64,000 nucleotides of DNA from Candidatus Nitrosopumilus sp. (lineage in GTDB: Archaea > Thermoproteota > Nitrososphaeria > Nitrososphaerales > Nitrosopumilaceae): contig JABSRD010000003.1 of the NCBI GenBank assembly GCA_013215285.1, positions 3,552 through 67,551 on the forward strand, in the 5' to 3' direction. The first letter of the stretch is position 1. Each line of letters begins with the position of its first letter. The translations under genes and the position numbers were made by a program. A model generated the notes under the pieces. That model had not been told where the DNA came from, ran no database searches, and was given only the letters and a program-made list of their open reading frames with translations. Shown piece after piece: positions 45,386 to 60,768 of this stretch.

Positions 45386-46516
45386 ATGATTCCTAGATCT
45401 ATACTACTTTTTGAAAATAGCATCAAAACTAAAGCAACCAGAAAATTGTATAATTATGCACTAAAGAAATTCATTGAATATTACAAGTTAAAATCCATTG
45501 AATCAATACTGGAAATTCCAGACAAAAAATTACAGGAAATGCTAGAAGATTATTTGTTTTACTTTAAAGCTAAAAATCTCAAAACACCAACAATCAGATC
45601 TTATTTTTCTGCTATAGAATTATTGTGCATAGTAAATGACAAGAACGGAATTAATTTTAAGAAAATTCACAAAATGTTTCCTCCTAATGTAAAAAAGGCT
45701 GGAAGGGATTCTTACTCTACTAACGATGTTCAAGAAATGCTGAACCATGCTAAAGAACTTAGAACCCTGGTAATTCTTCATATTCTTGCATCTACTGGAA
45801 TGAGAGTAGGTGCATTACCTGAACTCAAACTAAGAGACCTCTTGGACATGCCAAACGAATGTATGGCATTACACATCTATGAAGATTCTGATGAGGAATA
45901 TTGGGGATTCCTAACGCCAGAAGCATCTAAAATTGTTAAAGAATACCTAGATAAACGAGTCAAAGATGGAGAAACATCAGATTCATCCAATCCGCTAATT
46001 AGAGAAAGATACAGTATTGGAATTGCAAAACCACGTCACATATCTCAACCAAATATCCGAGTGATTATTCATAGATTATTGAAAATCACCCCATTAACCA
46101 GAACAAAAGAAGGAAATAGATTTTCTATAATGGAGGCACACGGAATGAGAAAAAGATTCAACACAATTCTAAAACTCAATAAGGATATTTCACCAGCTTC
46201 AACTGAGAAATTAATGGGACATAAAATTAATTTAGATAGTGTATATTTCACTCCTACTCGTGAAGAACTCTTTGATGAATTTAAAAAAGCAATACCTGAA
46301 TTAACTGTTGACAATTCAACGAGAAAACAATTCGAGCTAGACAAAGTAACAAAAGAAAAATCAGATTTAGAAAATGTAAATCTAGTTTTGAAACAAACGA
46401 TAATCGAAAAAGATGAAATCGCCAAAAAATACCGTGATGTAATGATTCAGCCTATCACTGATGATACAATTAATGAAAAAATTGAGTATTTCCTAAAAAA
46501 ACGCAAAGAACTCTAA
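45386..46516 (+). CDS. Tyrosine recombinase/integrase
   Basis: The 376-residue protein has a SAM-like N-terminal domain (about 1-100) and a catalytic domain with the full tyrosine-recombinase set: R140 in STGMRVGAL, H252-x-x-R255 in AHGMRKRF, H279 in LMGHK, and the nucleophile Y287 in DSVYFTP. A predicted coiled-coil tail (about 305-345) follows. It probably integrates and excises the element. It starts 112 nt after cofE, marking the left end of the element. Confidence 0.93.
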   Translation: MIPRSILLFENSIKTKATRKLYNYALKKFIEYYKLKSIESILEIPDKKLQEMLEDYLFYFKAKNLKTPTIRSYFSAIELLCIVNDKNGINFKKIHKMFPPNVKKAGRDSYSTNDVQEMLNHAKELRTLVILHILASTGMRVGALPELKLRDLLDMPNECMALHIYEDSDEEYWGFLTPEASKIVKEYLDKRVKDGETSDSSNPLIRERYSIGIAKPRHISQPNIRVIIHRLLKITPLTRTKEGNRFSIMEAHGMRKRFNTILKLNKDISPASTEKLMGHKINLDSVYFTPTREELFDEFKKAIPELTVDNSTRKQFELDKVTKEKSDLENVNLVLKQTIIEKDEIAKKYRDVMIQPITDDTINEKIEYFLKKRKEL

Positions 46517-49993: not shown

Positions 49994-50118
49994 TAAACTG
50001 TGAAATTTGTCCAAAAGAATTCATCTATACAGAAAATGGATTGGCAGAAATGATGTTCCATGTAATCGTAATTCATGGTAGTTTGATCAACGACCCAATA
50101 ATAGAAATAGAATATTGA
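49990..50118 (+). CDS. 42-residue C2H2 zinc-finger protein
   Basis: ATG 49990 in an ATGA overlap. The product is one finger, C-x2-C (CEIC), then H...IVIH, with an acidic end. It overlaps the TTG start of the HerA-like gene by 4 nt, so it is likely translationally coupled to it. Confidence 0.55.
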   Translation: MINCEICPKEFIYTENGLAEMMFHVIVIHGSLINDPIIEIEY

Positions 50119-51947
50119 TAATAAAAAAAGACGAAATACTTATCGGTCATGAAGTTGATACTGGATATCCAGTAACTACGACAGTTAATGATATTCGTCA
50201 AAACAAAATATTACTTGAGGGAGATTCGGGTTCTGGAAAAAGTCACCTGAATACAGTACTCATTGAAGGTACTGACAAAAAGGCTCAAAGACTAATTATC
50301 GATATTGAAGGTGAATACTTCCCATTAAAGAATAATTTTGAATTTTTACTAATTGGTAAATCTACTGACGAGGTTAAAGTCGATATTGAACTCAACATCA
50401 ATGATGTCTATGTTGAAAAACTTGCAATCAAATTAATTGAAAGTAGTGCAGACACAATTATCGATTTATCGGAATATCCGATTGAAGCCCCTCATTTTGT
50501 TTCAATACTTTTCAAAGCACTGCTAAAACATGCCAAAAAAATGAAGATACAGCTATTGATCTGCATAGATGAGGCTCATGTTTTTGCACCTGAAAAGGGA
50601 ACAGGTAGTGAAGAATCTCTGAAAGCAGTAATTGAGATGGTGAAAAGAGGGCGTAAACGAGGAATCGGAGTAATGTGTGCAACGCAAGCTATGGCTGATT
50701 TTAGTAAAAATGTAGTAAGACAACTCCGAACCAGATTCATTGGAAATTGCACATTGGAAAGTGATGTAAAATCTGCAGCAAGGGTTTTAGGATTTGACAA
50801 AATCAGAGAAAAAGAATTATCAGAATTAGGTGAAGACCATTACTTTTTTGTCGTAGGAAAGGCAATCAAAGTAAACGGTAAAAAACCAAACCATATGTTA
50901 AAAATCAAAGCAATACCCACAAAGACGAAACTGCATGACTTTGAATTCAATAAATCCATTACAAAAATCAAAGAGATTAATCCAAATGCAATCAAACTGA
51001 TCAAAGAAGAATTTTCAGACATTCCACAGTTAATTGATACCGAACTTACAAAACATGAAATATTGGAAAAAGAAAATATTGATTACAAAAAATTAGTGCA
51101 AGAACAAAGAGTTAAAATAATTCAGTTAGAAAAAGTAAAACCAACACATACCACATATGACCCTAAAGAACTCATTAGACAATACCAAAAAGGTTACAGT
51201 GAAGCAATCATAGAATTCAAACCAAAATTAGAAAAACAAATCAATGAACTAAAAGCAAAGTTGAGAGCATTCAAACCAATAATTAACAGACTTTGTAATA
51301 TTGGAAAAGAATTATTAGATTATGATGAAATGATTCCAGAAATTGACAGAATTTTAGAAATTAAAACAGATGAGATCAAACCAATAAAACAAACTCCAAT
51401 TATTTTCGAACCAAAGGAAATCAAACAAGTAACTAATACAATCCAAACAGAACCAGTAAGTGTTGATGGAGTCGAATTGACTGGTCCTGAAACAAAGATT
51501 TTGATTGCAGTTGTTCAAAGACCAGATCATACAGGTTCAAGAAATCAGATATCATTAATGTCAGGTTATTCTATCAAAAGTTCTGGCTTTACAAATCCAT
51601 TAGGGCATTTGAGAAAACTGGGATTAATCACTTATGGATCAAATACACTGACTGCAACAGATAACGGTATAGCGGTATTAGGTGATTACACCCCATTACC
51701 AATTGATTCAGAAACCATCTGTAATTATTGGGTGAGTAAAGTCTCAGGACCAGAAAGCAAAATATTACGACCCATCATAGATGCATATGACAATACAATT
51801 TCAAGAGAAGATTGTGCGCAAAAAGCAGGATATTCGGTAACTAGTTCTGGCTTTACAAATCCATTAGGACATTTGAGAAAATTGGGATTAATTGAATATG
51901 TGGGAAGAGAACTCAAGGCAACAAAAGAACTATTTCCAGATTATTAG
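50115..51947 (+). CDS. HerA/FtsK-like ATPase with coiled coil and duplicated winged-helix domains
   Basis: TTG start at 50115. The 610-residue protein has a HerA-type ATPase core. Walker A GDSGSGKS is at residues 36-43, and the Walker B region LLICIDEAHVFAP is near residue 150. KRGRKRGIGVMCATQ follows, then the arginine-rich RQLRTRFIGN. A coiled coil occupies about residues 310-420. The C-terminus has two winged-helix units (about 450-520 and 540-610) that repeat S-x-x-S-G-F-T-N-P-L-G-H-L-R-K-L-G-L-I. HerA normally pairs with the NurA nuclease; no NurA is present. The added DNA-binding domains suggest a DNA translocase for partition or transfer. The next genes (RHH, acidic protein, ParB-like fusion) are closely linked. 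Confidence 0.82.
   Translation: MIIKKDEILIGHEVDTGYPVTTTVNDIRQNKILLEGDSGSGKSHLNTVLIEGTDKKAQRLIIDIEGEYFPLKNNFEFLLIGKSTDEVKVDIELNINDVYVEKLAIKLIESSADTIIDLSEYPIEAPHFVSILFKALLKHAKKMKIQLLICIDEAHVFAPEKGTGSEESLKAVIEMVKRGRKRGIGVMCATQAMADFSKNVVRQLRTRFIGNCTLESDVKSAARVLGFDKIREKELSELGEDHYFFVVGKAIKVNGKKPNHMLKIKAIPTKTKLHDFEFNKSITKIKEINPNAIKLIKEEFSDIPQLIDTELTKHEILEKENIDYKKLVQEQRVKIIQLEKVKPTHTTYDPKELIRQYQKGYSEAIIEFKPKLEKQINELKAKLRAFKPIINRLCNIGKELLDYDEMIPEIDRILEIKTDEIKPIKQTPIIFEPKEIKQVTNTIQTEPVSVDGVELTGPETKILIAVVQRPDHTGSRNQISLMSGYSIKSSGFTNPLGHLRKLGLITYGSNTLTATDNGIAVLGDYTPLPIDSETICNYWVSKVSGPESKILRPIIDAYDNTISREDCAQKAGYSVTSSGFTNPLGHLRKLGLIEYVGRELKATKELFPDY
51579..51628 (+). repeat. Internal 50-nt direct repeat, copy 1
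   Basis: Nearly identical (48 of 50 positions) to 51843-51892. Both encode the same part of the two winged-helix units of the HerA-like protein. Such high DNA identity points to a recent duplication or ongoing conversion. Confidence 0.8.
51843..51892 (+). repeat. Internal 50-nt direct repeat, copy 2
   Basis: Second copy of the repeat at 51579-51628; the two differ at two positions (G/A and C/T). The copies are 264 nt apart, start to start, a multiple of three, so recombination between them would remove 88 codons in frame. Confidence 0.8.
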
Positions 51948-52649: not shown

Positions 52650-54053
52650 TTGCAAATTCAAACTTTACACAAATCAAAAATCAAGATATCTAAAAAATAT
52701 CAAAATGCAGTAGCTAGACAAACAAAAGATGAAAGAAAAACAATGCAAGAAAGCATAATCAAACATGGAATCAGGAAAGAACTGGAAATTAGTAAATTAA
52801 CAGGACTACTAGTTGATGGTCAAGAACGATATGAGGTAGGATTAACTGCAAACATTGAAGAGTTTCCAATAGTTTACAAGGATTTTGATTCAGAACTTGC
52901 AGAATTTCAATATGTAATTGACAATTCTAGATGTAGAAGGAATCTCACTACCTGGTGGATTGGAAAATTAAACCGACTCAATTTAGAACTAGAAAAAAAA
53001 TTGGCAAAGCAAAGACAGCAATTAGGAAAAACACCCACAGATAATCTAAAGCATGAAAATACAGAAAACACCAAAAATAATCATACCTCTGTGCAAATTT
53101 GCACAAAGGGTGCAAAAATCGAAAATGGAAGATCTAGTGAATTGGCAACTAAAGGTTCAGGAATAAGTGCAAGAACTCAGGATACAGTTTCACGAATCAT
53201 AGAATATGGTGACAAAGATCTCATAAAGAAATTAGATGATGGTGAACTTACCACTCACAAAGCTGAAACAATAATAATTCAAAAAGAAATTGAAAAAACC
53301 CCCATCCTTCCATTACCCATAGGAAAATTCACAGACATTGTTGAAGATCCAGGATGGCTCTTTGCAAACAAGAATATCGGTGGATCTGGAAAATCAGGAG
53401 CAGGTATGAAATATCGAGTGTTACCAACAAAAGATATTGCAAAAATACCTGTAGAAAGTATTGCCGCAGATAACGCAGTAAATTACATGTGGACTACAAA
53501 CTCACATCTGGTTACAGGATCAATGTTGATGAGTGAGTATATTGCAATACTAGAACAACAAAAATTTGAAATAAAAATAAAAAATCTCACAGATAAAGAA
53601 AAAATCAAAGAAATCCAAAATGTATTTTGTGAAAGAGTGTTAGCAATATCAGATATGCTTGGAAAAATCAAAGTACAAAGTGATGCGTTATCAGTAATTA
53701 ACTGTCATGGATTCACTCCAAAATACATCATCACTTGGGAGAAAAAAGAAAAAGAAGGATGGGGGGGATATGGCTTTAACAATGTCACAGAGCACTTGCT
53801 AATTGGAATTAGAGGCAAGATCAAACCATTTGGACTGCAAGAAAAAACAATTGTAAAATCAAAATATGTCCCAAGAACACATTCTAGAAAACCTGAAGAG
53901 ATGTGGGAGTTAATTGAAAAATGTGTTGGAATAACAAGAGGGAATCATAGAAAGTTGGAGATGAATTGTCGCACACCACGAAAAGGATGGTTGCCTCAGG
54001 GTGATGCAATTACTGAAAAAGATATAAAAAAATGGCAGAAATTTGGGAGTTAA
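52650..54053 (+). CDS. ParB-like domain fused to MT-A70 family adenine methyltransferase
   Basis: TTG start at 52650. Residues 1-100 are a ParB/Srx-like fold with the box GLLVDGQERYEVG (52-64). A region resembling the ParB HTH lies at about 165-210 (STARTQ-like ISARTQDTVSRII). From about residue 222 an MT-A70-type methylase begins: IVEDPGWLF with the catalytic-region motif reading D233-P-G-W236, then VNYMWTTNSHL, FTPKYIITWEKKEKEGWGGYGFN, HLLIGIRGK, and the C-terminal VPRTHSRKPEEMWELIE and EMNCRTPRKGW. MT-A70 enzymes usually have DPPW; here the second Pro is Gly. It may methylate adenine in DNA or be an inactive reader. Confidence 0.75.
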   Translation: MQIQTLHKSKIKISKKYQNAVARQTKDERKTMQESIIKHGIRKELEISKLTGLLVDGQERYEVGLTANIEEFPIVYKDFDSELAEFQYVIDNSRCRRNLTTWWIGKLNRLNLELEKKLAKQRQQLGKTPTDNLKHENTENTKNNHTSVQICTKGAKIENGRSSELATKGSGISARTQDTVSRIIEYGDKDLIKKLDDGELTTHKAETIIIQKEIEKTPILPLPIGKFTDIVEDPGWLFANKNIGGSGKSGAGMKYRVLPTKDIAKIPVESIAADNAVNYMWTTNSHLVTGSMLMSEYIAILEQQKFEIKIKNLTDKEKIKEIQNVFCERVLAISDMLGKIKVQSDALSVINCHGFTPKYIITWEKKEKEGWGGYGFNNVTEHLLIGIRGKIKPFGLQEKTIVKSKYVPRTHSRKPEEMWELIEKCVGITRGNHRKLEMNCRTPRKGWLPQGDAITEKDIKKWQKFGS

Positions 54054-54056
54054 AAA

Positions 54057-54254
54057 TTGAGTGAACTAACTTTTGAAGATGGAGTGTGGGCCGTAATTGA
54101 GAATTTTTATGGTTATGATTTCAATATTGAAATGATAATTAAAGAATTTAAAATAACTAAAGAACAAGCAATACAATATTCTAAGAAAACAGGGTTTAGA
54201 CCTGAAATTATCAATGAGATTAATGAAAAAGTTTGGTGTACTAATGCTAGTTAA
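54057..54254 (+). CDS. Hypothetical helix-rich small protein
   Basis: TTG start at 54057. The 65-residue product ends in a frame that overlaps the TFB start by 11 nt. It reads EDGVWAVIENFYGYDF, then NIEMIIKEFKITKEQAIQYSKKTG, which resembles an HTH recognition pair. Function is unknown. Confidence 0.5.
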   Translation: MSELTFEDGVWAVIENFYGYDFNIEMIIKEFKITKEQAIQYSKKTGFRPEIINEINEKVWCTNAS

Positions 54255-55413
54255 CCCAGAAAATACCTGTCTTAGATGTAAAGGGCCCATAATATTTGAT
54301 GAAATAGTTGGAGAAAAATTCTGTACTAGTTGTGGATTTGTTCAGGAATCACAAATCATAGATTATTCCAACAAAGACTCAATCTCAAAAGACGTGCTAA
54401 AAAAGAGATCACAAGAACATCATATCGTAACAAATTCCAATATACATGATGGTAATATGGGGTCAGTCATTATTTCACCAAACATAGACTATTCAGGCAA
54501 AAAACTCACGTTTCAACAAAAAAATTTCTCAACAAACATAAAAAAATGGGAAAAAAGAAATCGAGTAATCACAAGTAATGAAAGAAGACTAGTTACCTAT
54601 TTTCAAAAAGTACATCATCTAAAAGACCTATTGAGATTATCAGATACGTTTGTGAGCAAACTTTTTTTCATAATTCGACATGCAGAAAAGGCAAGGGTAC
54701 TGGAAAGTAAAAAGGTAGACATTGCAATAGTGGTGTTAATTCACATCGCAGGAAAGATGATAAATCAGCCAATACCATACACCAAACTAAAAAAATTATT
54801 TGAATTTAACAGCAGAAAATTTAACGAATACAACAATGAAATAATGTATTATCTAAAAATTGATTCTAAAGCCATCATAACTAAAGTGGAATTTGTGTTT
54901 GAAAAGTTTTGTAATGATTTGGGTATTTCACCAAAATTCAGAAAACATGGTCGCGAAATTATCGCTTATTGTAGAAAAAATGACATTTGTATGCAAAAAA
55001 CAAATGCAGTGATTGCAGCATCAGTGATTCATGTGGTTTTCATGCATTGTATGTACCAACATAATGATGTAAATGAGGTCAACCTTGAGCGAATCACAAA
55101 GGTCACAGGTGTTTCAGAGGGAAGTATATTGAGTAGTGCTAGGAAGATCAGACCGATAATAATACATCTAGGCATTACAGGAATCACAAAAGAAGATGTT
55201 ATAATTTCTAAAACAACAAAATCACAAAACAATCAGAACACATGTCCACACTGTTTAAGCAGAATGATCAAAGCATCAGGGGAGGGATATGATACATTGA
55301 ATGAAGAACATGTAAAATATATTCTTGGAAGAATATGTAAAAAATGCAAGAAAATTTTTATTAATCCAAAATTTAAAGAATATTCTTTTATTGTGAGTTC
55401 AATAGGCTGCTAA
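54244..55413 (+). CDS. Element-encoded TFB-like transcription factor with extra C-terminal zinc ribbon
   Basis: ATG 54244 (MLVNPENTCLRC) is preferred over the longer form. The 389-residue protein has an N-terminal zinc ribbon (C9, C12, C27, C30), a B-reader-like GSVI, two cyclin-like repeats (about 100-290) and an unusual C-terminal second ribbon (CPHC ... CKKC, about 335-380). TFB recruits RNA polymerase at TATA promoters together with TBP, and the chromosomal TBP lies at 14248. An element TFB could redirect host polymerase to element promoters. The extra ribbon is not usual for TFB. Confidence 0.82.
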   Translation: MLVNPENTCLRCKGPIIFDEIVGEKFCTSCGFVQESQIIDYSNKDSISKDVLKKRSQEHHIVTNSNIHDGNMGSVIISPNIDYSGKKLTFQQKNFSTNIKKWEKRNRVITSNERRLVTYFQKVHHLKDLLRLSDTFVSKLFFIIRHAEKARVLESKKVDIAIVVLIHIAGKMINQPIPYTKLKKLFEFNSRKFNEYNNEIMYYLKIDSKAIITKVEFVFEKFCNDLGISPKFRKHGREIIAYCRKNDICMQKTNAVIAASVIHVVFMHCMYQHNDVNEVNLERITKVTGVSEGSILSSARKIRPIIIHLGITGITKEDVIISKTTKSQNNQNTCPHCLSRMIKASGEGYDTLNEEHVKYILGRICKKCKKIFINPKFKEYSFIVSSIGC

Positions 55414-57630: not shown

Positions 57631-59715
57631 GTGACTGAAAAAACCACCTACACCGACTCTGCTTTGTCTGACAAAATAAAGGATTTTCTAAAATCCTTCA
57701 AAGATAAGATGGGACAATATTCCTATATAGAAACAATTGATCAAATGATGTCTCAAAACAAGACATTCTTGGTTATAGATTATGCCGATTTGGCACAACA
57801 ATCAGACTTGGAGGAAATATTCCACAAGGAACCTGATTTAATGTTAGAAGTTTTTGCAAGGGCAATAAAAGAAACTCTACAAACAAGATATCCTGATTAT
57901 GCTGAATCAATTAAGGATGAAATTAATGTACGAATTATAAACTACCCATTAAAGAAAACCGTAAGACAAATCAATTCAAAATCATCAGGCAAGTTCATTT
58001 CAATCAAAGCTATGTTGATCAGAATGTCACCTGTAGAATCAATTCCAACTGTTGCAGTGTATGTATGTCCTGATGGACACCCAACAAAACTTACTGCAAA
58101 AAGAAATTTCAACATTGGAATTCCAATTGTATGTAATAATCCAAACTGCAAACACCGAGATTTTGAATTATACCAAAAAGGATCTACATTTGAAGACTAT
58201 CAAATTTTACAATTACAAGAACTTCCAAGTGAGTTACCACCAGGAAAACTACCAAAAACATTGGGTGTTTTTGTACATGGTAGTTTGGTAGATTCTGCAA
58301 GGATGGGGGATACTGTAGAGATTACAGGTATTGTTCGAGCAGAATTATCAAATATCATAAAGTTAGGAAAGCCAGTTCAAACATATCGTCACAGACTGTA
58401 TGCGAATAACATTGTACGTCTATCAAATGACAATGATTTGGGTGGGAAAATAGATGACAGAAATATCCAAATGATTAATTCAATTAAAAATATTTCAGAA
58501 GATGATGCAACTGAATTAATTGTAAACTCTTTTGCAACACACATTCAAGGCCATAAACTAATCAAAGAGGCATTAATTCTCACCATGATAGGTTCTGATG
58601 CTCAAATTTTAGATGATGGGACAAGGGTAAGGGGTGATATCAACATATTTCTTGTAGGTGATCCAGGTACTGCAAAAAGTGAGATGGGAAAAGCAGTATT
58701 TCGAGTTGCACCAAAGGCTTTCTACGCATCAGGTAGAGGGTCTACAGGTGCAGGACTGACAGCAGCCACAATTCAGGATAAAACCACAGGTGCTTACATG
58801 TTGGAACCTGGTATCACGGTACTAGCTGATGAGGGATTGGCAATCATTGATGAATTCGATAAAATGAAACCAGAGGATAGAAGTGCATTACATGAAGTAA
58901 TGGAACAACAAACAGTTAGTATTGCAAAAGGTGGAATCACTGCAACTCTTAATGCAAGGGCATCAATAATCGCCATTGCAAATCCGTCATTTGGAAGATA
59001 TGATCCTTTCAAAAACCTCACAGAAAATATTCCATCAATTCCAATCCCACTACTTACACGATTTGATATGATATTTGTAGTGCGAGACATTCCAGAAAAA
59101 TCAAAAGATGAAAAAATTGCAAGACATATGATATCAACTCATAAAACCACAAAAACAGTTCGTATCAAAAAATCATTTGATCATGAAATATTTGTAAAGT
59201 ATCTAAGATTTGCAAAACAGAAAAAAATTAAACTATCAAAAGAAGCTGAAGAAAAAATTATTCAATATTATTTGAAGATGAGAAGTTCCACTGATGAGGA
59301 TTCAGGCTATACCATTACTCCAAGACAATTAGAAGGACTAGTCAGACTTACTACTGCAAGGGCAAAGTTTCTACTAAAAGATATGGCTGATGAGAATGAT
59401 GCAGACCGAGCAATTCACATCATGGATGAAATGTTTCACAGTTCTGGAGTAGATGTCAATACAGGTAAAGTAGACTTGGGAGTGTTGCAAGGAAAACCAA
59501 AAAGCCAAGTATCACAAATGAATTTGTTTCAGGATTTAATGAAGTCATTAGAACAAGATTCACATTCAGGAGTTCCAGACAAGGAAATCATTTCAGAGAT
59601 GGAAAAGACTGGAAAATGGGATGAACCACAAGCAAAAGATTTTTTCAAGAAAATGTTACGTGAAAGTATTCTTTTTGAGATAAGACCTGGCAGATATTCA
59701 TGGGTTTCACAATAA
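57631..59715 (+). CDS. mcm: MCM replicative helicase
   Basis: GTG start at 57631. The 694-residue protein has an N-terminal domain with a zinc site (CPDGH ... CNNPNCKH) and the AAA+ core: Walker A GDPGTAKS, Walker B LAIIDEFDKM, sensor IIAIANPSFGR and the Arg finger region PLLTRFDM. A C-terminal winged helix follows. Length and order match archaeal MCM. It is an element copy of the replicative helicase; archaeal plasmids and integrated elements often carry one. The adjacent iterons make it a likely partner at the element origin. Confidence 0.93.
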   Translation: MTEKTTYTDSALSDKIKDFLKSFKDKMGQYSYIETIDQMMSQNKTFLVIDYADLAQQSDLEEIFHKEPDLMLEVFARAIKETLQTRYPDYAESIKDEINVRIINYPLKKTVRQINSKSSGKFISIKAMLIRMSPVESIPTVAVYVCPDGHPTKLTAKRNFNIGIPIVCNNPNCKHRDFELYQKGSTFEDYQILQLQELPSELPPGKLPKTLGVFVHGSLVDSARMGDTVEITGIVRAELSNIIKLGKPVQTYRHRLYANNIVRLSNDNDLGGKIDDRNIQMINSIKNISEDDATELIVNSFATHIQGHKLIKEALILTMIGSDAQILDDGTRVRGDINIFLVGDPGTAKSEMGKAVFRVAPKAFYASGRGSTGAGLTAATIQDKTTGAYMLEPGITVLADEGLAIIDEFDKMKPEDRSALHEVMEQQTVSIAKGGITATLNARASIIAIANPSFGRYDPFKNLTENIPSIPIPLLTRFDMIFVVRDIPEKSKDEKIARHMISTHKTTKTVRIKKSFDHEIFVKYLRFAKQKKIKLSKEAEEKIIQYYLKMRSSTDEDSGYTITPRQLEGLVRLTTARAKFLLKDMADENDADRAIHIMDEMFHSSGVDVNTGKVDLGVLQGKPKSQVSQMNLFQDLMKSLEQDSHSGVPDKEIISEMEKTGKWDEPQAKDFFKKMLRESILFEIRPGRYSWVSQ

Positions 59716-59719
59716 ATTC

Positions 59720-59887
59720 ATGCCAAGAAAAATAAAAAAAGTTTCACTAAACACTGGAATTAGTTCAAAGACTATGATCAAATTTATAAAATTCGTAAAG
59801 AAACAGCATCATGGAGTCATCAAAGGACCAATGTCATTTGAAACCGAACGAGCAATACTGTTACTTCTTGCAATCTATGATGTTTGA
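59720..59887 (+). CDS. Small RHH-like protein beside the origin
   Basis: ATG 59720 to TGA 59887 encodes 55 residues: KVSLNTGISSKTMIKFIKF, then HHGVIKGPMSFETERAIL. The IKGP motif and the preceding helix match the protein encoded at 60322 on the other side of the repeats. It has an N-terminal basic patch (PRKIKK). It could be an origin- or partition-site binding factor. Confidence 0.55.
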   Translation: MPRKIKKVSLNTGISSKTMIKFIKFVKKQHHGVIKGPMSFETERAILLLLAIYDV

Positions 59888-60321
59888 TCGCATGTCGGAT
59901 AACGTTAGTAGGCACACATATGCTTGCATGTTGTTTGCATGCAGTCCCCACACATATGGGAATTTTATTTCACACTTAGGCACAAATCTACCTCATTTTT
60001 GACTCTTTTCTATCTAAAAACCTGTATTGTATGCTGGATAACGTTACCTAACGTTAGCTGGTGTTATCCTACATGTAATTGTGTTATGTTATGTCGTATA
60101 GTGTTATTCTACATGAAAATAGACGATCGCTAGTCATGAGTAATAAAATAATTTTTAATCAAAAATTTATTGCATACAAACAACATACATGCAAACCCAT
60201 ACGTGCTAACGTTATCCGACATGGAATGTCATATCATACAGTATAACACCATACAACATGAAATGTCTGTGTCAAATAACACCCGATAACATCTTCTAAC
60301 GTTATCCTACATGGAATAATT
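59888..60321. repeat. Iteron-like region, candidate replication origin
   Basis: The 434-nt gap has no coding frame but holds repeats of CTAACGTTATCC(G/T)ACATG. Perfect copies in opposite orientation are at 59891-59908 and 60206-60223; a near-copy is at 60296-60313. Partial copies lie at 60031-60046, 60048-60057 (the palindrome CTAACGTTAG), 60061-60075 and 60091-60115. The core AACGTT occurs at 59901, 60040, 60050, 60208 and 60298. The outer pair extends as an imperfect inverted repeat of about 50 nt (59891-59943 and 60171-60223). An AT-rich stretch (about 60139-60175) between them fits an unwinding element. MCM lies immediately upstream. Confidence 0.65.
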
Positions 60322-60768
60322 TTGAAGAAAAAAAGAATTTCAACTGAAGTATCTGAGAATACAAAAACTCAATGGGATGATTTTATGTTATCAAAACATG
60401 GAACCATCAAGGGACCATATGGCCCTGAATTAGAATTGGCAATGAAAAATCACATGAAAAACTATGTTCAAGTTAGTGTTGATGATTCAATTCAATATGG
60501 TAAAAGTACCATGGAGTCCCTCAAATCTATCTGTTTTGGACTTCGTGAATTACCTTCATTCCCAATGATTCAACCAATTACCCTGACAACTATAATTAAA
60601 AAATATACGCAGATAAAAGATGTTAGAACAATTAAAAAATATAAGAAAATTATTTTGTCATATTCAAAACAAGAGAAACTTGAAAATCAAACGTTTCCAC
60701 AATTAAACGTAGAAGGATTTTGTGTTTATGTTGAAAAACTCACACAAGAAAAATTTGTAAATGTTTAA
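60322..60768 (+). CDS. RHH-like protein with IKGP motif
   Basis: TTG start at 60322, 9 nt after an iteron copy that would therefore cover its promoter. The 148-residue protein has an N-terminal RHH-like unit (KKKRISTEVSENTKTQWDDFMLSKHGTIKGPYGPELELAMKNH, described in parts) and a C-terminal helical domain (TIIKKYTQIKDVRTIKKYKK). I see this as a candidate iteron-binding replication or control protein. It is the longer relative of the 59720 gene. Confidence 0.6.
   Translation: MKKKRISTEVSENTKTQWDDFMLSKHGTIKGPYGPELELAMKNHMKNYVQVSVDDSIQYGKSTMESLKSICFGLRELPSFPMIQPITLTTIIKKYTQIKDVRTIKKYKKIILSYSKQEKLENQTFPQLNVEGFCVYVEKLTQEKFVNV

Follow-up and report, generated by a model that had tools for sequence, protein, structure and literature searches.

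Iteron origins beside a helicase gene are known from bacterial mobile elements. In SaPI and SCCmec, the iterons lie directly downstream of the helicase gene and are bound by the helicase itself (PMC7581432), and these helicase-iteron origins are the nearest precedent studied in detail for the locus described here. In archaea, a 2026 preprint proposed that viral MCM proteins have a recognition domain of their own and described an RHH-like protein that replaces mcm at the same locus (PMC12934983). Among thaumarchaeal mobile elements, the integrative and conjugative elements (ICEs) have been defined by marks that include TFIIB-like, VirB6, TadC and prepilin-peptidase genes (Krupovic et al. 2019, PMC6563490). 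It is unsettled how origins are marked and opened in mobile elements that have an MCM and lack Orc1/Cdc6. Our search, which was confined to the open-access literature (subscription papers being outside its scope), found no description of an RHH-iteron origin beside the mcm gene of an archaeal element. Here, we analyze an array of short repeats that adjoins the mcm gene of a thaumarchaeal element and compare it with the surroundings of mcm in other elements.

Host contig and mobile element

The window, that is, the whole stretch of 64,000 nt that was analyzed, covers positions 3552-67551 of an 89,093-nt contig (C19) belonging to a genome of 1.66 Mb that is 99% complete, and we infer that the host is an ammonia-oxidising archaeon of the Nitrosopumilaceae type. 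The part of the contig that begins with the integrase at 45386 and runs to the right resembles a mobile element (Table 1). Candidate ICE marks comprise the integrase and TFIIB-like matches, a HerA-like ATPase, and a TadC-like protein near the contig end with a weak T2SSF match; VirB4 and VirD4 were not identified among the genes, the right end lies outside the contig, and from this gene content we regard the element as ICE-like. Among the element proteins scanned with Pfam, there was no match to Orc1/Cdc6, primpol, Rep, relaxase, ParA or TubZ. Because the right end lies outside the contig, an Orc1 gene or another origin could be located beyond it. A duplicated end of the F420-ligase gene was considered as the attachment site and rejected, since the second copy was not found.

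The nearest relative element, in genome G150, is 62% identical in one membrane protein, and its contig ends just before the corresponding region. The polytopic membrane protein of the element has matches in 34 of the 250 family genomes; a second, partial copy, 66-67% identical, is present on contig C6 of the same genome (L113:2088-2765) and belongs to either a related element or a remnant. Plasmid and phage records contained no DNA related to the element region. The HerA-like gene contains a 50-nt direct repeat, 96% identical, at window positions 51579-51892 (C19:55130-55443), which reflects the duplication of a segment near the C terminus of the protein. To the right of the window, at C19:74019-78314 (L010:14020-18315), two inverted 83-nt copies, 98.8% identical, lie on either side of a tRNA-Arg gene and of genes for a HaeIII-type restriction enzyme, a D12-class adenine methyltransferase and an IS240-type DDE transposase; the whole may be a composite transposon with a restriction-modification system as cargo. 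Nearby (L010:10753-13950; C19:70752-73949), an XPB-like helicase matching the PbeA models (PADLOC) adjoins a DUF790 protein.

Table 1. Features of the element and of the repeat array, in window coordinates
Feature	Position	Strand	Remarks
Tyrosine recombinase (Phage_integrase)	45386..46516	+	left side of element
HerA/DUF87-type ATPase of element	50115..51947	+	
MT-A70 methyltransferase with weak N-terminal ParB-like match	52650..54053	+	ParB_N E = 0.15 only
TFIIB-like protein	54214..55413	+	mark of thaumarchaeal ICEs (PMC6563490)
Element mcm	57631..59715	+	694 aa; MCM_N, OB, P-loop and lid domains
55-aa RHH-like protein	59720..59887	+	HGVIKGP sequence pattern; no Pfam match
Left arm of 68-nt imperfect inverted repeat	59876..59943		75% complementary
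Noncoding gap with repeat array, proposed element origin	59888..60321		434 nt
Site 1	59891..59916	-	exact 18-nt unit; strong half 12/12
Site 2	60030..60055	-	GGATAACGTTA half, 10/12
Site 3	60050..60075	+	GTGTTATCCTACATG half, 12/12
Site 4	60090..60115	+	both halves recognisable, 8/12 and 11/12
AT-rich stretch, candidate unwinding element	60140..60179		88% AT (element mean 68%); between sites 4 and 5
Right arm of 68-nt imperfect inverted repeat	60171..60238		75% complementary
Site 5	60198..60223	+	exact 18-nt unit at 60206-60223; within right arm of inverted repeat
Site 6	60235..60260		both halves weak, 9/12 and 8/12
Site 7	60288..60313	+	exact 18-nt unit at 60296-60313; ends 8 nt before start of 148-aa gene
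148-aa protein, candidate repeat-binding initiator/repressor	60322..60768	+	N-terminal RHH-like pattern (HGTIKGP); C-terminal winged-helix-like model

Repeat array beside the element mcm

The gap that holds the array is the second largest intergenic gap in the listed part of the element; mcm and the gene for a 55-aa RHH-like protein lie on its left and the gene for a 148-aa protein on its right. As the first-pass annotation had reported, an 18-nt unit, CTAACGTTATCC(G/T)ACATG, is present in three copies and in both orientations, and all three (59891-59908 on the minus strand, 60206-60223 and 60296-60313 on the plus strand) proved to be exact. A fourth copy, at 60058-60075, has 3 mismatches, and at up to 3 mismatches only 0.04 matches would be expected by chance in the whole window. 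The five AACGTT cores previously noted in the gap were all located (59901, 60040, 60050, 60208 and 60298); the 64-kb window has 12 such cores in total. The longest exact repeat within the 434 nt measures 18 nt, compared with a maximum of 13 in 500 shuffles, and one 16-mer has 4 near-copies in the gap versus at most 2 in 100 shuffles.

Further degenerate sites, which had been missed, bring the total in the gap to seven 26-bp sites, each agreeing in at least 17 of 24 positions with a dyad-like consensus, CATGTNGGATAACGTTATCCNACATG; in the rest of the 89-kb contig two sites reach this level, with 0.5 expected in a mononucleotide shuffle of the contig, although this score is only descriptive because the consensus was derived from those very sites, and the statistics are carried by the exact 18-mers. 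Most of the seven sites combine one near-perfect half with a degenerate one, sites 4 and 6 being those in which both halves are recognisable. Their orientation is mixed, and the spacings between their centres (139, 20, 40, 108, 37 and 53 nt) are not all whole helical turns.

The array was also said to be bounded by an extended inverted repeat joining its outermost copies around an AT-rich stretch. The stretch was found between sites 4 and 5, and an extended imperfect inverted repeat does exist; however, it pairs the first exact copy with the second-last, and the truly outermost pair (59891/60293) is 21 nt long only, with 90% complementarity. GC skew, suggested earlier as a check for an origin, gave no signal at the gap: the curve rises near-steadily over the element, because its genes are co-oriented, with no inflection at 59888-60321.

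Element MCM and flanking small proteins

The MCM encoded next to the array is full-length and distinct from that of the host. Over its full length it shares ~54% identity with the family's chromosomal MCMs, among them that of the host at C1:395614, and it is complete and of host-MCM length, with neither an N-terminal extension nor an added DNA-binding domain. Judging from this comparison, the gene appears to be an mcm of host type that was captured and has no further domains. The 55-aa gene starts 4 nt past mcm and would be part of the mcm operon.

The first-pass annotation had described the array as flanked by two RHH-like proteins with an IKGP motif and had placed one repeat 9 nt before the start of the second. 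The motif, in the form HGxIKGP, is indeed common to both proteins, and site 7 adjoins the start of the 148-aa gene, the distance to its TTG start codon at 60322 being 8 nt. Neither protein has a Pfam match, and in the AlphaFold2 model of the 148-aa protein the N-terminal half has a pLDDT of about 40-60, with two helices in place and no strand; RHH is therefore a sequence-pattern call for both, joined by a low-confidence N-terminal model. The C-terminal 85 residues, modelled at a mean confidence of ~80-94, consist of helices followed by a wing of two strands and a final helix, which is a predicted winged-helix-like arrangement. The best Foldseek matches of the model include the winged-helix protein AspA of pNOB8 (E = 0.19) and, lower, TubR; none is significant.

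Relatives of the 148-aa protein, at 20-24% identity, are encoded in other thaumarchaeal elements, several of them near integrases. In the loci of relatives that were inspected (L019, L090, L091 and L180-L182), no comparable array was found, and a further G150 contig has a fragmentary 60322-like stretch, also without such an array. Thus, this protein family does not depend on the presence of an array, and the 60322-type protein may have been recruited to the array here or may be a regulator. IMG/VR contained no close relatives of either this protein or the element mcm.

Arrays beside mcm in other elements

A search for the literal 18-nt unit gave one match, with 1 mismatch, in 249 related genomes and 3 single matches in viral contigs, compatible with chance. 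None of the 249 genomes has the unit beside mcm, an absence that the first-pass annotation had itself named as one of two observations that would speak against its proposal. By these sequence searches, the repeat in its literal form is confined to the present element.

The surroundings of mcm were compared for the presence of arrays of any sequence. The comparison set consisted of 250 family genomes, in which the loci of other element-type MCMs, 25-30% identical to the window MCM, were inspected; a profile scan of the genome contigs with the element MCM alignment returned 74 chromosomal-type loci, used as controls, and three known element contigs. Four loci, L083 (G131), L085 (G047), and L086 and L087 (both G188), with MCMs 25-28% identical to that of the window and 30-51% identical to that of L087, have 9-nt units (about GGTCANATA) in inverted arrays immediately on the 3' side of mcm. 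These arrays start within ~100 nt of mcm and consist of tandem 9-nt units, a short spacer and units in the opposite orientation (GGTCAGATA/TATCTGACC type). The 9-nt units of L083 and L087 are followed by another array, made up of AACAC-type repeats, and then by a gene for a putative RHH protein with a weak Pfam RHH_1 match, under the curated cut-off (E = 0.0024 and 0.013). The order mcm, array, RHH-like gene is common to the window, L083 and L087, whereas the repeat sequences differ. The two G188 loci are different mcm-bearing elements located ~49 kb apart on a single contig (C20), each with a 9-nt inverted array past mcm. Of other loci, L088 has a 19-nt tandem pair ahead of a small gene and mcm, and L084 has a weaker repeat cluster upstream of mcm; no repeat cluster was found beside the mcm genes of L089 and MFTV1.

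Repeat content was scored on 8-mers in the 600-nt flanks of mcm, with a threshold of 4.5. Scores of at least 4.5 in the 3' flank were obtained for 4/8 element mcm loci versus 2/102 chromosomal ones (2/73 and 0/29; Fisher p = 0.0002), a p value that is optimistic and uncorrected for kinship: some species may be present in both control sets, and one MCM clade accounts for four of the eight element loci, so that the comparison amounts to about three or four independent cases. For L085 and L086, the choice of k-mer decides whether the threshold is passed, and L086 falls under it even though its array is visible.

In 20 mcm-bearing elements, among them haloviruses, Methanocaldococcus plasmids and pTN3, repeat clusters occupied 6.3% of sequence windows within 600 nt of mcm versus 1.6% elsewhere. 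The clearest analogue in this set is plasmid pFS01, with six copies of ACAGATAAG in both orientations ~0.2-0.4 kb upstream of the HTH gene that precedes mcm. The signal near mcm of BJ1 and Humcor1 is weak in detail, and that of HFTV1 corresponds to a 7-nt tandem repeat directly ahead of a possible mcm start. Very strong repeat clusters were also observed at L164:7321-7980 (an IMG/VR contig) and at L089:2701-3540 (G020), at distances of 1.5 and 5 kb from mcm, respectively.

Proposed function of the array

The recurrence of arrays with mcm, while their sequence changes, favours an iteron-type origin with a separate recognition protein: the pattern would fit an origin whose recognition protein co-diverges with its sites, which a plain operator need not do. 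The array is far above chance and confined to the gap, and the element encodes a complete second MCM with no Orc1/Cdc6 or Rep-type match among the proteins scanned, a gene content that likewise points to an origin of this kind. On balance, we lean towards the reading that the gap is an iteron-type origin at which a separate small DNA-binding protein takes the place of Orc1/Cdc6 in recognition. The earlier proposal of an iteron-controlled origin is supported in part: the adjoining gene is a separate, complete element mcm, the products encoded on either side resemble small DNA-binding proteins, and mcm-side arrays recur in other elements but are rare at chromosomal mcm genes. It is weakened by the unconserved literal repeat, by the 60322 relatives that lack an array in the loci inspected, by the tentative RHH assignment and by a GC skew that gives no signal.

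RHH proteins are typical autorepressors, and the sites could be nothing but operators through which two RHH-type repressors control 60322 and downstream genes, with no role in replication. The position of site 7, 8 nt from the 60322 start, agrees with this, as does the location of the 60322-protein relatives beside integrases in other elements, where a master regulator would be expected. However, seven sites are spread over 430 nt, six of them at least 60 nt from the sole start codon, an array next to mcm is retained in distantly related elements though its sequence changes, and the relatives of the 60322 protein have none in the loci inspected. We consider an operator cluster alone unlikely.

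Less likely still is an origin recognised directly by the element MCM, as by SaPI Rep or SCCmec Cch2, with the RHH-like proteins as bystander regulators. The iterons directly downstream of the SCC/SaPI helicase genes (PMC7581432) and the origin-recognition domain proposed for Thermococcales viral MCMs (PMC12934983) provide precedents, but the window MCM has the length and domains of a host MCM, with no N-terminal extension, and a 26-bp dyad-like site would better suit a dimeric binding protein. The third alternative concerns segregation. Many centromere-binding proteins are RHH proteins, and the non-significant top structure matches include the centromere-binding AspA of pNOB8, and TubR. Nevertheless, although thaumarchaeal ICEs have ParB-like genes near TFIIB (PMC6563490) and genes of MT-A70/ParB-like and TFIIB-like type occur in the window, a parS-like partition site bound by the winged-helix/RHH protein is improbable, given that no ParA or TubZ NTPase was found among the element proteins scanned and that the arrays of other elements adjoin mcm.

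Under the preferred reading of the gap as an iteron-type origin, it would be used when the element is excised or self-replicating. The 148-aa protein, with its putative RHH and winged-helix parts, would bind the seven half-palindromic sites on either side of the AT-rich stretch, perhaps together with the 55-aa RHH-like protein from the mcm operon. The occupied array would strain the DNA and melt the stretch at 60140-60179, where the element MCM would be recruited, probably as two hexamers, and the remaining replication steps would be left to the primase and polymerases of the host. With site 7 at the start of its gene, the 148-aa protein might also limit its own synthesis and hence the copy number.

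More tentatively, and with greater doubt than for the window itself, thaumarchaeal mobile elements might share a modular, Orc1/Cdc6-independent mode of initiation, in which an MCM is combined with a small RHH (or RHH plus winged-helix) protein. This protein would recognise an inverted iteron array, located next to mcm and diverging fast in sequence, and would load the helicase, with array and protein changing in step and the layout staying constant. Because the element joins an MCM without an added DNA-binding domain to an adjoining array and small proteins, in a layout also seen in distant elements, it offers a small and concrete system for testing whether origin recognition or helicase loading falls to a separate protein. 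Replicating vectors for ammonia-oxidising archaea might also be developed from this locus.

Comparison with known systems

Archaeal chromosomal origins of the ORB/Orc1-Cdc6 type differ from the window in that no orc1/cdc6 gene adjoins its repeats, as judged from the element proteins scanned with Pfam. The window resembles bacterial iteron plasmids in its multiple short predicted binding sites, its AT-rich stretch and its adjoining candidate initiator gene; however, by Pfam the candidate initiator of the window is no Rep-type protein, and bacterial iteron origins consist mostly of direct repeats in register, whereas the window repeats occur in both orientations and in no single register. With the SaPI rep-ori and the SCCmec Cch2 origin (PMC7581432), the window shares an array downstream of the helicase gene of a mobile element, as a proposed or shown origin; the array of the window starts 172 nt past the mcm stop, with the 55-aa gene in between. 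The SaPI and SCCmec systems are bacterial, and their helicase binds the iterons through its C-terminal domain, whereas the window has an ordinary archaeal MCM and small RHH/winged-helix-like proteins flanking the array.

Among archaeal systems, the integrated thaumarchaeal elements NitGar-E6, NitEve-E3 and ThaMY3-E2 likewise have their own MCM (PMC6563490), but they are cryptic integrated elements for which no origin was described, whereas the window element is ICE-like, a class for which the same study does not mention MCM. Methanocaldococcus plasmid pFS01 has a comparable array of short repeats, likewise of mixed orientation, close to mcm and to a small HTH gene, although in another archaeal phylum, with another repeat and with the array upstream. 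Finally, the MCM modules of Thermococcales viruses lack Orc1/Cdc6, as do the element proteins scanned in the window, and an RHH-like protein can take the place of mcm at the same locus (PMC12934983); for those viruses recognition is proposed to reside in an N-terminal extension of the MCM, whereas in the window it would be the task of separate proteins.
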